Under the pieces are notes generated by a model. That model saw only the letters and a program-made list of their open reading frames with translations, searched no databases and was not told the DNA's origin. A program made the translations under genes and the position numbers. Below, one piece after another: positions 1 through 34,461 of a DNA stretch of 35,231 bases. This DNA comes from Atopococcus tabaci (GTDB lineage: Bacteria > Bacillota > Bacilli > Lactobacillales > Carnobacteriaceae_A): positions 13,699 to 48,929 of the forward strand of contig JAUNQW010000010.1 of assembly GCA_030535975.1 (NCBI GenBank). The letters are read 5' to 3'. Positions within the stretch are counted from its first letter, which is position 1; each line of letters opens with the position of its first letter.

Positions 1-719
1 GGGCTAAATTCTGTAGGGATTCCGTGTTTGTAAACAACAGATAAAATATCTACTCCAGGTTCATTCTTTCCACCAATTTCAGTGGTCACTAAACCAATCA
101 TTGCGTGCTCATGGTCAGCATCAGGATAGGCAGTGATTTCAATTTGTACAATACTTTCATTTTTAGGATGAAGCCCCTGAGGACTAATAAATACGCGATA
201 ACTTTCCAATCGTTTATCTCGAAGCTCGGCATAACCGATATAGGATGAGTTTTCTAATTCATTTTTTTCATAAGCATGAAATTCTCCTATAACATGACTT
301 ACCCCATGTTCAATGATTTCCTGGACAGTTCCTTCCGGTCCTTTACCATTTTTAACATCTGAAGCTTTATCAATGGAAATCAGTACTCGATCATTTTCCA
401 TTGCATGATTCGTGCGGTGGGCTGGAACGAACACATCCCCCTCCAAACCTTCAATTTCGACGAAACCATAACCTTTTTGACTTTTCCTGAATTTTCCTTC
501 CACATAACCATTGGAATGAGGCAGCATAAATTCACCGTGGTCAGACAGAACGATTTCCCCGTCACGTTCTAATTCAGCTACGGCCATCACCAGCTTTTTA
601 AATTGTTCGGATTCAGCCATGGATAAGCCATGGCTCAAATCGTTCATTTCAAAAGTCTTTTGTTTGCTAGATTCCATAAATTTCAATATATTTTTGTGTA
701 TATTTTGTGAGTTATTCAC
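1..719 (-). CDS. rnr: Ribonuclease R, N-terminal part (runs off the window)
   Basis: 3'-5' exoribonuclease that degrades structured RNA and works with tmRNA/SmpB in trans-translation quality control. The visible 239 codons have an N-terminal helical/winged-helix part followed by cold-shock-like RNA-binding segments (GYVEGKFRKSQKGYGFVEIE near residues 70-90, then GDVFVPAHRTNHAME). The sequence then enters the start of the RNB domain (PGVDILSVVYKHGIP). All of this is typical of RNase R. I chose the GTG at 719-717 because AAGGAG lies 7 nt upstream; no ATG nearby has a comparable site. The gene is cut by the left edge, so the catalytic Asp residues and the S1 domain are not visible. Its place downstream of eno-secG is usual in Lactobacillales. 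Family assignment is confident; activity is inferred. Confidence 0.93.
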   Translation of the reverse strand, partial: MNNSQNIHKNILKFMESSKQKTFEMNDLSHGLSMAESEQFKKLVMAVAELERDGEIVLSDHGEFMLPHSNGYVEGKFRKSQKGYGFVEIEGLEGDVFVPAHRTNHAMENDRVLISIDKASDVKNGKGPEGTVQEIIEHGVSHVIGEFHAYEKNELENSSYIGYAELRDKRLESYRVFISPQGLHPKNESIVQIEITAYPDADHEHAMIGLVTTEIGGKNEPGVDILSVVYKHGIPTEFS

Positions 720-861
720 TATAGAACTCCTTTTCCTTGTTACAATATTTACGTCAATTCATACTTAAGTTAATTCTATCATACAAGGGCTGATCGCACA
801 CAGTAATGCATGATTTATAGATGAGAAGTTAATTTATTACCAGAAGTCTTACCTCAGCAAT

Positions 862-909
862 AAAAAAAGTGATTCTTCTTCAAATTTAATGAAGAGGAAT
901 CACTTTTTT
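862..909 (-). terminator. Rho-independent terminator after the nitroreductase gene
   Basis: An inverted repeat of about 17 bp (AAGTGATTC..GAATCACTT with a nearly paired extension) is followed on the minus strand by a run of seven T. It lies just after the stop of the 935-1543 gene and separates it from rnr. The rest of 720-934 shows only the rnr leader and ribosome site, with no clear promoter match. Confidence 0.85.
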
Positions 910-934
910 AAGGCATATACTATTATAAAAAGAT

Positions 935-1543
935 TTACTTAACTTCAGTAAAAACTTGAACTTCTAAATCTGAATCGATGTAATCTTTTGCTTCATACTC
1001 CTGCTCGATTGAACCAAATGGCATTTGAGCAACCATTTCATAAGATTCCGGTAAATTTAATAATTCACGGAACACTTTATCAAATCCCTGTTCATAGCCA
1101 ATGTTGAAGTGCTGTAATGTTCCGCCTAAGCCTAATTCAGTTAGAGCTAACCAAGCTGAGTACTGTTGGAAGGCATCATTATGCTGCTTATAGAGATTTT
1201 GCTGGCTTTCAGCAGCTGGGATATTTTCTTTAACTGCGTCTCTGTCTTCAAAGAATAAAATAGTCCCGACCCCTTGACCTGCACCTTGAATGACCCCGCT
1301 CATTCTTTCCCAGACTGCTCCATCTAAAACATCTTTTTGAACATCGTGGATTTCTTTCCACACGCGTTCGTTAGCATCATCAAAAACAAGAATTAAGCGT
1401 GTCGTTTGTGAATTGAAAGAAGAAGGGACATTTTTCGCCGCTTCACGTAAAGCTTCAGTAATTTCTTCCTTACTTAAATCTGTATTTTTACCTATAACAT
1501 AAGTTGACCGACGTTTTGCTTGTAAATCTGTAAAATTTGACAT
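935..1543 (-). CDS. Nitroreductase-family (Frm2/Hbn1-like) FMN oxidoreductase
   Basis: Predicted flavin-dependent NAD(P)H oxidoreductase of 202 aa, in the usual size range for short nitroreductases. The N-terminus has the family's basic R-R-S-T segment (residues 11-14), which contacts the FMN phosphate, followed by a Ser/Asn-rich stretch (VPSSFNSQTTRL) as in the Frm2/Hbn1 subgroup. The central region has a Gly-rich GAGQGVGTILFFED segment, and LGLGGTLQHFN near residues 138-148 is the expected second FMN-contact region. The start is ATG with GGAG 9 nt upstream. The gene sits between terminators on both sides, so it is probably monocistronic. The physiological substrate cannot be read from sequence; nitro-compound or quinone reduction is a family-level guess. 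Confidence 0.82.
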   Translation of the reverse strand: MSNFTDLQAKRRSTYVIGKNTDLSKEEITEALREAAKNVPSSFNSQTTRLILVFDDANERVWKEIHDVQKDVLDGAVWERMSGVIQGAGQGVGTILFFEDRDAVKENIPAAESQQNLYKQHNDAFQQYSAWLALTELGLGGTLQHFNIGYEQGFDKVFRELLNLPESYEMVAQMPFGSIEQEYEAKDYIDSDLEVQVFTEVK

Positions 1544-1659
1544 AATTTTATTCTCCTTTTTTATCTAGCTTGTTAATTAAATTGATACAAGTGGTGCTTA
1601 CAATTAATAAGATAACATAGTTACTAAAAGTAAGCAAACATTTTTGATTTAACTATAAA

Positions 1660-1707
1660 AAATAAGCAACCTACTCCTGTATATTCACAGAGCTAAGTTG
1701 CTTATTT
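1660..1707 (-). terminator. Rho-independent terminator after secG
   Basis: An 11-bp perfect stem (AAATAAGCAAC at 1660-1670 with its complement at 1697-1707) is followed on the minus strand by a run of T. It closes the secG transcript and probably the whole gap-to-secG cluster. Confidence 0.88.
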
Positions 1708-1720
1708 TTAAATTTATCGA

Positions 1721-1951
1721 TTAACTAATCATGGCAATCCAAATTGAAACAATAAAGAACAAGCTTCCTAAAAGTTTTGTCGTTGTGTGTAAAAACGCTT
1801 CGAATCCACGAGGCTTGACCTGAGTTGTTTGTTCTTTTCCGCCTCCAATAAAGGCATTAGATGCGCTTTGAGTTTTGGCCGGCTGTAAAGCAACAACTAT
1901 TATAATTAATGCTGATAAAACAATCATCACACCAATTAATATATCTCTCAC
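1721..1951 (-). CDS. secG: Protein translocase subunit SecG
   Basis: Small membrane subunit of the SecYEG preprotein channel. It is 76 aa with two hydrophobic helices (about residues 4-23 and 55-74) separated by a short polar loop containing a Gly-rich G-G-G stretch, the standard SecG topology. A longer frame opens at an ATG at 1999. I place the start at GTG 1951 because GAAGGAGG lies 7 nt before it and the resulting length matches the family (about 75-80 aa). It follows eno, a conserved eno-secG-rnr neighbourhood in Lactobacillales, here interrupted by the nitroreductase gene. Confidence 0.88.
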   Translation of the reverse strand: MRDILIGVMIVLSALIIIVVALQPAKTQSASNAFIGGGKEQTTQVKPRGFEAFLHTTTKLLGSLFFIVSIWIAMIS

Positions 1952-2030
1952 CGTTTGGCCTCCTTCATAAAATTCCATTACCAGAAAATCATAACACACT
2001 TGTCGATAAAAGTCTAAAGTGATTTATGGA

Positions 2031-4852
<2,822 letters not shown>

Positions 4853-4860
<8 letters not shown>

Positions 4861-5617
4861 GAGTGCCTGCCACCTTTATCATTTGAGCAAAAGAAGCCGC
4901 TTCTAAACCTGCACCACCTATTAAACCACCATCGACATTTGTTTGCGCCAAGAAGGAACCTATATTTTCAGGATTGGCGCTTCCTCCATACTGGATACGG
5001 ACTTCATCAGCCAATTCTTGAGAATACAGCTCTGCAATTTTTTCGCGAATAGCAGCAGCAGCTTGTTGAGCTTCTTCATCACTTGCTGTTTTTCCTGTAC
5101 CAATAGCCCAGACCGGCTCATAACCTACAACTAATTGTGATATATCTTCAGCCTGAACCCCCGTCAGCCCTTTTTCAATCTGCTCATTAACAACCTTTTT
5201 AGTTTCGCCTTTTTCTTTCTGTTCAAGGCTTTCTCCTACACATAAAATAGGCGTCATCCCTTGTTCAAAAACAGCTAAAACTTTTTCATTAATAAACGCA
5301 TCACTTTCATTAAAAATTTCACGGCGTTCACTATGACCCACAATGACATATTCGATACCCAGATCTGCTAAAGCAGAAACACTTGTTTCGCCAGTAAAAG
5401 AACCTGATTCCTTAGGATAGGCATTTTGTACACCTATTTTAATATCAGAACCTTCACTTTCATCAAGAGCCATCTTAGCAAAAAGATCCGGGACAGCTAC
5501 TACAATATCAACTTGACTGCCCGGCAGGTCCATAGAGAGTAATTCTTTGAAGTAATCCTGCGCCTCTGAATACGTCTTATTCATTTTCCAATTTGCACAT
5601 AAAATATTTTTTCTCAT
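4853..5617 (-). CDS. tpiA: Triose-phosphate isomerase
   Basis: Interconverts dihydroxyacetone phosphate and glyceraldehyde-3-phosphate. It is 254 aa, a complete TIM barrel. Catalytic residues are visible: Lys11 in NWKMN, His95 in IVGHSERR, and Glu167 in VVGYEPVWAIGTGK, followed by the flexible phosphate loop and YGGSANPEN. The ATG has AGGAAAGG just upstream. It lies 20 nt after pgk and overlaps gpmI by 8 nt, inside the glycolytic operon. Confidence 0.98.
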
Positions 5618-5637
5618 TCTAATCCCTTTCCTAAATA

Positions 5638-6828
5638 TTATTTTTCGTCTATTGCTTTAACACCAGGTAGGTCTGTTCCCGCTAATAATTCCAGCATAGC
5701 TCCTCCACCCGTAGAGATATGTGAAAAGGCATCTGCATAACCTAAAGATTCTACTGCCGAGACAGAGTCTCCTCCCCCTACAATCGAACGGGCATCAGTA
5801 TTTTCTCCAATAGCACGTGCCATCTCTTCTGTTCCCTTAGCATATTGCTCTATTTCGAAGACACCCATCGGACCATTCCAAATAACAGTTCGAGCTTTAC
5901 CAATATAATCTGCATAAAGCGCGATTGACTCCGGCCCGATATCCAGACCCATCAAGTGATCAGGAATATCACCAGCTACGGTCTCATAAGCTGCCTCGGC
6001 AGAAAATTCTTCCGCACAGACATAATCCACAGGCAAGATGATTTTATCTCCATTTTCTTCTAAAAGCTTTTTGGCATCATCAAGTAAATCTTCTTCCAGC
6101 AATGATTTTCCAATCGTTTTCCCCTGCGTTTTCAAGAAAGTAAAAGCCATCCCGCCGCCAATCAGAATATGGTCAGCCTTATCAATCAAATTATTGATGA
6201 CAGGTAATTTATCTGATACTTTTGATCCGCCCAGCACTAATACAAAAGGTGACTCAGGCTGGTCTAAAGTGGCACCAATTGTGGTTAGCTCCTTGTTAAA
6301 TAAAATACCAAGAGCTGCCTGGTCAGAATAAGTCGATAAGCCCACATTAGAGGCATGAGCGCGGTGGCCTGTACCAAATGCATCGTTGACAAATATATCA
6401 CCCAGACTTGCCCAGTACTCAGCTAAATATTCATCGTTAGTTGATTCTTTTTTACCATCAATATCTTCATAACGTGTGTTTTCAACTAATAATAATTCAC
6501 CTGCTTTTAGGCTCTCAGCTGCTTCTTCTAATTCTTGTCCGCGAGTTTCAGGAACAAAAGTAATATCATAGCCTTTCTCTTTTAAATAATCCGATACAGG
6601 CTTTAATGATTTGCCGGCTTTGTCTTCTTCTTTTTTTACTCGACCCAAATGTGAAAATAAAATAACTGAAGCTCCCTCATCCAGAAGGTAGTCAATCGTC
6701 GGTAAAGATCCGTCGATACGAGAAGAATTCGTGATTTCGCCAGCATCATTCATAGGAACATTGTAATCTGCCCGCACCAAAACTTTTTTCCCTTTTACAT
6801 TTAAGTCTTTAACAGTTAACTTTGTCAT
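5638..6828 (-). CDS. pgk: Phosphoglycerate kinase
   Basis: Transfers the acyl phosphate of 1,3-bisphosphoglycerate to ADP, the first ATP-yielding step of glycolysis. It is 396 aa, full length. It has the N-domain VRADYNVP substrate motif, the HLGR motif, GTGHRAHAS, and the C-domain nucleotide-binding GGSKVSDK and GGGDSVSAVE, ending in STGGGAMLELL. The ATG has AAAAGGAG upstream. A 14-bp hairpin sits in the gap-pgk intergenic region, so pgk and the genes after it may be expressed at a lower level than gap, or from a processed transcript. Confidence 0.98.
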   Translation of the reverse strand: MTKLTVKDLNVKGKKVLVRADYNVPMNDAGEITNSSRIDGSLPTIDYLLDEGASVILFSHLGRVKKEEDKAGKSLKPVSDYLKEKGYDITFVPETRGQELEEAAESLKAGELLLVENTRYEDIDGKKESTNDEYLAEYWASLGDIFVNDAFGTGHRAHASNVGLSTYSDQAALGILFNKELTTIGATLDQPESPFVLVLGGSKVSDKLPVINNLIDKADHILIGGGMAFTFLKTQGKTIGKSLLEEDLLDDAKKLLEENGDKIILPVDYVCAEEFSAEAAYETVAGDIPDHLMGLDIGPESIALYADYIGKARTVIWNGPMGVFEIEQYAKGTEEMARAIGENTDARSIVGGGDSVSAVESLGYADAFSHISTGGGAMLELLAGTDLPGVKAIDEK

Positions 6829-6853
6829 CTTTTTCTCCTTTTATAAACAAAAT

Positions 6854-6887
6854 AAAAGCCAACATTAAATCAATAATGTTGGCTTTT
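6854..6887 (-). terminator. Strong intercistronic hairpin between gap and pgk
   Basis: A perfect 14-bp stem (AAAAGCCAACATTA at 6854-6867, complement at 6874-6887) with a 6-nt loop, directly after the gap stop. On the minus strand the stem is followed by TTTTATTTTG, an interrupted T tract. It can act as a leaky terminator or as a 3' stabiliser of a gap-only transcript. No separate promoter is evident ahead of pgk in the 69-nt gap. Confidence 0.7.
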
Positions 6888-6897
6888 TTTCCTGTTT

Positions 6898-7899
6898 TTA
6901 CTTAGCTTTAGATGCTAGGTCTTCCATAACACGAACAAATTGTCCAACAAATCCCATCTCATTGTCATACCAAGCTACTGTACGAACTAATTGTCCATCT
7001 TCTGTCTCTAGTATTTTTGTTTGAGTTGCATCAAAAATAGAACCATGTGTATCTCCAATCACATCTGATGAAACAATTGGATCTTCTGTGTAATCAAATG
7101 CATCATTTTGACGAGATTCCATTAATTTATTAATGTCTTCTACACTTGTTTCTTTTTCTAAGACTACTGTCAGCTCTGTAACTGAACCTGTTAATGTTGG
7201 AACACGTTGTGCTGCTCCATCTAATTTTCCTTCTAATTCCGGAATAACCTTTCCAATAGCTTTAGCTGCTCCAGTCGTAGTTGGAATAATGTTTGCTGCC
7301 GCCGCACGTGCACGCGTCATATGTGTATGAGAACCATCTACTAAGTTTTGATCTCCAGTATATGCGTGGATTGTGGTCATTAATCCTTGTTTAATTCCAT
7401 ATTCATCCTGTAATGCTGCTGCCATAGGCGCTAAACAGTTAGTTGTACATGAACCTGTCGAAACCATGTCTTCGGATCCATCTAATGTATCATTATTTAA
7501 TCCATAGATAATCATTGGCATATCATCAGCCGGAGCTGTTATGAATACTTTTTCAACACCTTGTTCAAAATGTCCCTTTGCTTTGTCTCGTGCGTTGAAT
7601 GCACCTGTACCTTCAACTACATACTGGACATCTGCTTCTTTCCAAGGAATTTCAGCTGGGCTATTCCCTTTAAATACATGCACATCACGGCCGTTAACCT
7701 TGATTAAATCCGTACCTTCAACAGAAACTTCTCCGTTAAAACGACCTTGAGCACTGTCATATTTTAATAGGTGAGCATGAACTTCTGCATCCTGACGTCC
7801 ATTGATTGCCACCACTTCGAAATTATCATTTTCTTCTAATAAACGAAATACTAAACGACCAATACGCCCGAATCCATTAATCCCAACTTTTATTGCCAT
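6898..7899 (-). CDS. gap: Glyceraldehyde-3-phosphate dehydrogenase, possible NADP-type pocket
   Basis: Oxidises and phosphorylates glyceraldehyde-3-phosphate to 1,3-bisphosphoglycerate. It is 333 aa with the Rossmann N-terminus INGFGRIGR, catalytic Cys151 in STGSCTTNC, catalytic His178 in TTIHAYTGD, and the conserved WYDNEMG near the C-terminus. Two places that read NAD differ from the usual form. After VAIN the normal Asp is Gly34 followed by Arg35, and the usual Leu-Pro before H-x-x-x-x-x-R-A-R is Gly189-Ser190. Loss of that Asp and Pro-to-Ser are the classic changes in NADP-accepting GAPDHs. The ATG has AAAAGGAG upstream, with an extended -10 and a cre site further up. It is the first gene of the glycolytic cluster; no cggR precedes it. 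The function is certain; the cofactor preference is inferred. Confidence 0.96.
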   Translation of the reverse strand: MAIKVGINGFGRIGRLVFRLLEENDNFEVVAINGRQDAEVHAHLLKYDSAQGRFNGEVSVEGTDLIKVNGRDVHVFKGNSPAEIPWKEADVQYVVEGTGAFNARDKAKGHFEQGVEKVFITAPADDMPMIIYGLNNDTLDGSEDMVSTGSCTTNCLAPMAAALQDEYGIKQGLMTTIHAYTGDQNLVDGSHTHMTRARAAAANIIPTTTGAAKAIGKVIPELEGKLDGAAQRVPTLTGSVTELTVVLEKETSVEDINKLMESRQNDAFDYTEDPIVSSDVIGDTHGSIFDATQTKILETEDGQLVRTVAWYDNEMGFVGQFVRVMEDLASKAK

Positions 7900-32978: not shown

Positions 32979-33006
32979 TTGACTATATTTATTATTTTGC
33001 TAGAAT
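32979..33006 (+). promoter_or_regulatory. Promoter of the NADH peroxidase-like gene
   Basis: TTGACT (32979-32984), 16-nt spacer, TAGAAT (33001-33006). It is close to consensus and places the start point about 35 nt before the ATG. The -10 lies in an inverted repeat. Confidence 0.8.
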
Positions 33007-33018
33007 AGAATTATTCTA
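33001..33018. promoter_or_regulatory. 7-4-7 inverted repeat over the -10 of the NADH peroxidase-like gene
   Basis: TAGAATA at 33001-33007 and TATTCTA at 33012-33018 are perfect inverted copies with a GAAT centre. The repeat begins at the -10 and runs over the start region, the position of a repressor operator. It resembles AT-rich peroxide-regulator sites only loosely. Confidence 0.5.
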
Positions 33019-33046
33019 AATTATACTATAAGTATGGAGGCAAGTA

Positions 33047-34414
33047 ATGAAAGTTATAATCGTTGGGACATCACATGTAGGTTTTGAAGCAACACAAACC
33101 TTGTTAAAAGAAGTTCAAAATGTTGATATTCATTTGTTTGAGCAAGATGACAAAATGTCATTTATGGGTTGAGGGAGTCAGTCTTATCTGGAAGATAAAG
33201 TAGACTCTTTAGATGAGCTTCACTATGCCAATCAAGCATCTTACGACGCTCAAGGTGTAAAGACCTATGTGGACTCAAAAGTTATTGCAGTAAATCCTGA
33301 TTCTAAAGTTGTTACAGTGGAAAAAGAGAACGGGACCACCTATGAGGAATCATACGACCAACTTATCTTGAGCCCTGGCGGATTACCTGGAAAACCACCT
33401 ATCGAAGGTGTAGATTCCGAGAATATCTTCTTCTTCCGTGGACGCGGCTGGACAGATATTGTGAGGAAACGTAAAGATGTTGCTGAAAAAGCTGTTATTG
33501 TCGGTGGGGGGTTCATTGGTATCCAAGTCGCTCAAGCTTATACTTTAGCTGGTATTGATACTACTGTAATCGATATGGAAGAACGTTTATTACCTACTTA
33601 TCTCGATAAAGAATTTACAGATCTCTTAGAGCAGCACGCAGCTGAAAAAGGCTTAAACTTCCGTCCTGGCGAAGCTGTTCAAGAATTTGTTGCAGATGGA
33701 CAAGGTGCTGTAGAAAAAGTAGTAACGGATAAGGGCGAGTATGAAGCAGACACCGTTATCTTAGCAACTGGTGTTGTACCTGGAACAAAATGGTTGGAAG
33801 GCATCTTGGAAATGACGGATAATGGCTACATTAAAGTTAACGAATACCAACAGTCCTCTGAAGAAGATATCTATGCAGCAGGAGATGCAACTATGTATCC
33901 ATACGCTCCGACTGGAGGTTTAGCACCGACCGGATTAGCTACCCTGTCCAGCCGTGAAGCAGTTATAGCTGCTAAAAATGTTGCAGCTGGTGAAAACAAA
34001 TTCAAAACTCCTGCTATGTCAGGAACAGCAGCTTTACACCTATTTGATTACAAGTTTGCAAGCACCGGACTGAACGATGCTTCGGCTGCAAGGACCGACT
34101 TAAATATTTCGAGTAAATTTTATCAAACTCGAATTCTGCCTGAATTCATCGATGATGACCGTGAAATTTTAATGAAAATTCACTATGAGACAGATACACA
34201 TCGTATATTAGGGGCACAACTCATGTCTAAAAAAGATATTACCCAGTCTATTAACACCATGTCTGTTATTATCTCTGCTAAAATGACTTTAGAAAATCTA
34301 GCCCTGCAGGACTTTTTCTTCCAGCCGGAACGCAATAATCGTTGGAATTATCTCAACCAACTTGCACAGCAGGCTCTTGGCGAGACATTTGGCAGTGACC
34401 AGCAATTATTTTAA
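33047..34414 (+). CDS. npr: NADH peroxidase/oxidase-family flavoprotein, putative selenoprotein (in-frame UGA at codon 42)
   Basis: 455 codons from an ATG with GGAGG 6 nt upstream. Homologous to enterococcal NADH peroxidase, which reduces H2O2 to water with NADH using FAD and one redox cysteine. Residues seen: FAD fold IIVGTSHVGFEA with His10 and Glu14; NADH fold VIVGGGFIGIQ near 150-160 with an Asp-ended strand (VIDMEE); second FAD motif IYAAGDAT near 275-282; dimer-domain FDYKFASTGLND and DFFFQP. The one break is TGA at 33170-33172, codon 42. In the family this is the catalytic Cys: SFLSCG-x-x-x-Y there, SFMG-TGA-GSQSY here. The frame stays open and conserved for 413 more codons. A SECIS-like hairpin follows at once. 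Selenocysteine insertion is the best reading; a simple nonsense mutation is the alternative. Automatic annotation would start it wrongly at 33269. Confidence 0.85.
33173..33209 (+). promoter_or_regulatory. SECIS-like hairpin directly after the in-frame UGA
   Basis: The upper stem TTATCT (33184-33189) pairs perfectly with AGATAA (33193-33198) around a GGA apical loop. The lower stem GAGTC (33175-33179) pairs with GACTC (33203-33207), extended by two G-U pairs. Between them is a small internal loop of mismatches and wobble pairs. The loop GG begins 18 nt after the UGA. Bacterial SECIS elements sit in the same window and carry G in the apical loop for SelB. This was folded by eye only. Confidence 0.65.
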
Positions 34415-34418
34415 GATT

Positions 34419-34461
34419 AAAAAGGAAGAGCCGGATTTTAATTCCCAGCTCCTCCTTTTTA
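34419..34461 (+). terminator. Rho-independent terminator after the NADH peroxidase-like gene
   Basis: AAAAGGA-GAGC / GCTC-TCCTTTT stem followed by TTATTTTT, immediately after the stop. The gene is therefore monocistronic. Confidence 0.82.

Follow-up and report, generated by a model that had tools for sequence, protein, structure and literature searches.

A predicted selenocysteine form of an NADH-peroxidase-like flavoprotein in Atopococcus tabaci and other Lactobacillales

NADH peroxidase (Npx) is the textbook example of an enzyme that works through a stabilised cysteine-sulfenic acid. Its structure has been solved for the wild-type protein and for the C42A, C42S, L40C and R303M mutants, and the sulfenic acid of Cys42 constitutes its redox centre (PMC1847454). 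Selenocysteine (Sec) is already known in this superfamily, from an FAD-dependent oxidoreductase (CoA-disulfide reductase/"NADH oxidase") of Geobacter metallireducens, WP_011365774.1 (PMC1794560, PMC13188914), and from one sequence in the GOS metagenome (PMC2398784). The Geobacter-type protein has been listed as an FAD-dependent oxidoreductase in 2022 (PMC9312934) and again in 2026, with the motif UGxP (PMC13188914). The 119 prokaryotic selenoprotein families tabulated in 2026 (PMC13188914) do not include NADH peroxidase itself, and a literature search, whose scope left aside subscription papers, preprints and live RefSeq annotation, returned no report of a Sec NADH peroxidase. The Sec form of NADH peroxidase predicted here appears in no published inventory that we found. 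Furthermore, a 2006 survey recorded, among Lactobacillales and Gemella, only an orphan selD in Enterococcus faecalis; by the present predictions, Sec is used more widely, in many Lactobacillales and in Gemella.

The locus lies in a 35,231-nucleotide stretch of Atopococcus tabaci DNA (the window), and the product of its positions 33047-34414 is called the window protein below. The relevant features are as follows.

32979-33006, plus strand: promoter-like pair TTGACT-16-TAGAAT, a consensus match only
33005-33019, plus strand: PerR-box-like palindrome ATAGAATTATTCTAA, overlapping the -10 element and fitting NTANAANNATTNTAN (consensus from PMC3458967); statistically weak
33036-33040, plus strand: ribosome-binding site GGAGG, 6 nt before the ATG at 33047
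33047-34414, plus strand: coding sequence of an NADH-peroxidase-like flavoprotein with predicted Sec, 455 residues if UGA is read through; fold match TM 0.95
33170-33172, plus strand: TGA codon 42, taken as Sec, aligned with Cys42 of E. faecalis NADH peroxidase
33172-33210, plus strand: bSECIS-like RNA element, with lower stem 33172-33179/33203-33210, upper stem 33184-33189/33193-33198 and apical loop GGA 33190-33192
34420-34459, plus strand: probable intrinsic terminator read from the sequence, inverted repeat AAAAGGAAGAGC...GCTCCTCCTTTT followed by a T tail

An earlier note on this DNA had described a frame of 455 codons with one TGA, at codon 42, preceded by a well-placed GGAGG and retaining the active-site residues His10 and Glu14; the frame check bore out all of these points. 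A TAA at 34412-34414 closes the frame, and the window protein, read with UGA at position 42, has no cysteine at all. The same note had taken promoter and terminator to be intact, which stands in part: the promoter-like pair agrees with the consensus, and the terminator is plausible by eye and absent from the terminator scan output because its loop is longer than the limit of the scan. The PerR-box-like palindrome would suit a peroxide enzyme and is suggestive only. Among the Sec forms, the PerR-box consensus was matched by the window and one Facklamia sequence, and 25 of 300 shuffle sets did equally well; four Cys forms matched, a result equalled by 0 of 300 shuffle sets. Since the UGA splits the gene in a six-frame reading, a standard gene finder is expected to truncate it, and truncated annotation is likewise expected in the clinically met E. 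avium, G. haemolysans and F. hominis.

In the window alone, the TGA could be explained as a chance nonsense mutation in a pseudogene, or as a sequencing error, as one substitution in TGC or TGT yields TGA in an otherwise open frame. The relatives argue otherwise. A protein search of 60 related genomes, with stops read through and counted, found the TGA form in two members of the same family as the window (G005 and G007) and in one of the same order (G033), and codon 42 was TGC or TGT in every close Cys form, the alternation that the earlier note had proposed to look for. When 84,980 species genomes were scanned with a sequence pattern, 51 sites matched; 20 were unrelated and rejected as chance matches, and the remaining 31 proved to be genuine homologues carrying TGA as codon 42. 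These homologues came from Enterococcus (avium, raffinosus, devriesei, pallens, hulanensis, xiangfangensis, viikkiensis, dongliensis, alishanensis, florum and others), Vagococcus, Gemella, Facklamia and Alloiococcus otitis. Together with the genome of the window (G000), G005 and G489, 34 distinct sequences carry TGA at codon 42, and wherever the gene was complete in the locus, no TGA-form gene had another in-frame stop. A class-wide sample of 399 genomes gave matches only in G000 and G033, and Vagococcus vulneris (G484) carries one Sec copy and one Cys copy in the same genome. The dN/dS ratio after codon 42 was 0.02-0.08 in 10 of 11 close Sec pairs (those with defined values); therefore, the region past the UGA is translated and constrained. 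A chance hit at this codon, which the earlier note had held improbable, is hard to reconcile with the recurrence of this TGA in 34 distinct sequences, free of other stops and drawn from at least five named genera, with strong purifying selection downstream and with the perfect co-occurrence with selA described below. The explanation by pseudogene or sequencing error was rejected on these grounds; it is refuted for the family, and we give it practically no chance. The earlier note had further called a Sec form novel or rarely noted. With at least 34 genomes it is not rare, and a Sec form of a related subfamily was already known.

The genome carrying the window (G000; 1.33 Mb, an incomplete assembly, 85% complete) contains the Sec-decoding genes. 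A profile search found selA at 590.8 bits against a cut-off of 267.9 (E 5e-178), and beside selA and tRNA-Sec lie selB (351.9 bits, cut-off 242) and selD (329 bits, cut-off 125), both by NCBIfam TIGR models. The tRNA-Sec scored 67 bits against a gathering score of 47 and has the anticodon TCA. Thus, all four genes that the earlier note had proposed to look for are present. Further in-frame TGAs of this genome were read around the sel cluster only, and there they fall at the canonical Sec sites of SelD (CGG-U), GrdA (CFV-U, NF040748) and GrdB (U-xxC-xxC). Taken together, these genes and sites indicate that UGA is very probably decoded as Sec in this organism. Reading of the UGA as another amino acid, by a code change to Trp or by general read-through, would also yield a full-length protein. 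However, a dedicated tRNA-Sec(UCA) with SelA, SelB and SelD is present, the residue replaced is Cys and not Trp, and the other in-frame TGAs read sit at known Sec sites. A code change was rejected for these reasons, and decoding as an amino acid other than Sec is very improbable. The recoding of UGA42 as Sec is well supported.

In the same genome, glycine/sarcosine reductase genes lie beside the sel cluster of this Lactobacillales member (L002, G000:C49:48000-66000; positions 600-7368, minus strand). A small ORF between selB and selD (L002 12104-12391, minus strand) resembles DUF3343 by eye and has no NCBIfam match.

The TGA form and the Sec system occur together. In all 31 scan genomes with the TGA form, selA scored above its curated cut-off, and it was also found in G000, G005, G007, G033 and G489, that is, in every TGA-form genome checked. 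Within the group of the window, selA was above the cut-off in 3/3 close TGA forms (G000, G005, G007) versus 0/15 close Cys forms (Fisher ~0.001), and tRNA-Sec showed the same split among the 20 relatives tested. Of 29 genomes in the Vagococcus-like family to which G033 belongs, 14 carry selA, and these 14 include every one of the 7 with a TGA form (hypergeometric ~0.002). Physical linkage of the peroxidase gene to sel genes was seen in A. otitis only, where the Sec peroxidase gene adjoins tRNA-Sec and is near yedF and selDBA. The A. otitis segment that separates the sel genes from the Sec peroxidase gene (L057 11460-18622) carries a yedF-like gene, the tRNA-Sec, three acyl-CoA-dehydrogenase-like paralogues and MetE-like and substrate-binding-like genes, the last three names being given from reading the sequence; this segment is possibly an organo-sulfur/selenium acquisition island. 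GrdA, with one in-frame TGA each, occurs in 19 of 25 Sec-peroxidase genomes (e.g. E. avium, Gemella, Facklamia). A GrdA match is absent in the other six (A. otitis, Enterococcus sp. 665A, E. xiangfangensis, E. pallens, V. proximus and V. vulneris); therefore, the reason for keeping the Sec system there may include the Sec peroxidase.

The published bSECIS criteria are an apical loop of 3-9 nt with G in the first two positions, a stem of 4-16 bp, a distance of 16-37 nt from the UGA and an MFE of at most -7.5 (PMC13188914). The earlier note had proposed a bSECIS search, and a hairpin that fits this model was found 3' of the TGA in the window: UUAUCU-GGA-AGAUAA plus the lower stem, with a 6-bp stem 17 nt after the UGA and -11.8 kcal/mol. 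Facklamia and G489 share the register of this hairpin with two pairs changed on both sides (covariation), and in a second register, common to Gemella, A. otitis and G005, one pair occurs in three types (U-A, G-C, A-U). The Enterococcus and Vagococcus Sec forms gave no convincing hairpin, and none that reached the bSECIS energy criterion. Against synonymous-codon shuffles, the region was only slightly more stable (mean z -0.57 over all Sec forms versus -0.08 for Cys forms), and in a strict hairpin scan at -2 kcal/mol, hairpins were equally frequent in Cys controls (13/34) and Sec forms (12/31). As shuffles and scan lend modest support, SECIS as a universal signal was dropped, and the SECIS claim rests on two observations: the hairpin of the window agrees with the published model, and pairs covary within two subgroups. 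The grdA and selD genes of the window's genome also fold weakly (-5.3 and -4.6); Sec insertion is therefore compatible with weak folding. Beyond the UGA, synonymous sites of the Enterococcus/Vagococcus group are somewhat more conserved, but not outstandingly so.

By profile search, the window protein comprises two pyridine-nucleotide-oxidoreductase (Pyr_redox) domains and a dimerisation domain. Its best solved relative over the whole length is E. faecalis Npx, and the TGA aligns with Cys42 of that enzyme. In Foldseek, the AlphaFold2 model (pLDDT 92) had Npx entries as its six best chains, all with TM about 0.95 and including the C42A/C42S, L40C and R303M mutants. The identity to E. faecalis Npx is 41% for the window protein and 67-70% for the Enterococcus/Vagococcus Sec forms. 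Glu14 is kept in all Sec forms, and Arg303 in 29 of 31, the two with Ser being the window protein and that of E. alishanensis (L098). On account of Ser303, the window protein is called Npx-like and is not filed as Npx, and we are less confident that it is catalytically competent than we are for its relatives. Thus, the name NADH peroxidase given in the earlier note agrees with the fold, His10 and Glu14; with 41% identity and no Arg303, the exact activity is a prediction. The clear-cut predicted Sec forms of Npx proper are those in Enterococcus and Vagococcus.

Ser303 in the place of Arg303 also bears on another reading, in which the protein does contain Sec but works as a water-forming NADH oxidase, or has another substrate, such as CoA disulfide, persulfide or organic peroxide, instead of H2O2; superfamily and fold are indeed common to LbNOX and to CoA-disulfide/persulfide reductases. 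In contrast to the Sec forms with their Glu14 and prevalent Arg303, the LbNOX-like oxidase clade has Val303 and no Glu14. The window protein, with Glu14 and Ser303, also scores well under the cut-offs of the water-forming NADH oxidase family NF046103 (338 bits against 600) and of the CoA-disulfide reductase family TIGR03385 (280 bits against 578.8), its motif being UGSQ and not UGxP. Since its best match in both structure and sequence is NADH peroxidase, we regard an oxidase or other-substrate enzyme as unlikely, though a less distant prospect than a code change.

The residues next to position 42 change together with it. Cys forms read SF[L/M]S-C-G and Sec forms SFMG-U-G, once SFMA-U-A; in the tree set, residue 41 is Ser in 32/32 Cys forms and Gly/Ala in 31/31 Sec forms. 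The scan pattern fixes G41, G43, Q45 and Y47, so that tallies at these sites are biased, and we therefore quote the 10 Sec forms from protein searches that do not fix residue 41, of which 9 have G and 1 has A. The Sec forms fall into two distinct parts of the tree, one containing E. faecalis Npx and the other the window protein, and at least three changes between Cys and Sec are required by branches with good support. The Enterococcus/Vagococcus Sec forms group with the characterised Npx and the window protein falls in a neighbouring clade; the window protein and the A. otitis sequence are on long branches, which leaves their exact places unsure. We see an even chance that Sec was acquired, or swapped with Cys, on more than one occasion, each time with the flanking change S41G/L40M; that the Npx-type cysteine-sulfenic-acid enzyme has a natural selenenic-acid counterpart, which would be a new class of peroxidase in selenium biology; and that this enzyme may be a main reason for keeping the Sec system in some Lactobacillales without glycine reductase. 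Paired Cys and Sec orthologues, about 70% identical, allow a direct test of the benefit of Sec over Cys within a single, well-understood active site that has no resolving thiol.

For the window protein, we thus favor an Npx-type peroxidase with Sec42. SelA, SelB, SelD and tRNA-Sec would insert Sec at UGA42, aided by the hairpin just downstream, giving an FAD- and NADH-binding protein in which Sec42 is the sole redox residue. By analogy with the Cys-sulfenic-acid cycle of E. faecalis Npx, the Sec42 selenolate would react with H2O2, or with some related hydroperoxide, to form a selenenic acid, which FADH2 formed from NADH would reduce back, with no resolving cysteine taking part. The Npx fold, the active-site residues and the Cys42-sulfenic acid of Npx (PMC1847454) make such an NADH/FAD-driven selenolate/selenenic acid cycle the most likely one. 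We hold this account as a whole to be highly probable; selenium incorporation, substrate and the selenenic acid cycle are the parts that we infer, as is the peroxidase activity.

Compared with known systems, the window protein shares with E. faecalis Npx (PDB 1npx, 1joa, 1nhp, 1f8w) the fold, the length, His10, Glu14, a single redox residue at position 42 and the lack of a resolving cysteine. It differs in having predicted Sec42 instead of Cys42, SFMG-U-G instead of SFLS-C-G, and Ser303. The nearest known selenoprotein is that of Geobacter metallireducens, of the same superfamily, whose UGxP motif would put Sec at the presumably equivalent catalytic Cys; it belongs to another subfamily (TIGR03385), whereas the window protein has UGSQ and lies far under the cut-off of that family. 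LbNOX of Lactobacillus brevis (5er0) has the fold and the catalytic position in common with the window protein, but uses Cys42, and its clade differs at residues 14 and 303. Sec glutathione peroxidase and Sec peroxiredoxin resemble the window protein in that a selenol reduces peroxide via a selenenic acid, as would be the case here. In contrast, their folds are unrelated, and in the window protein the flavin of the same protein, not a thiol, would reduce the selenenic acid.
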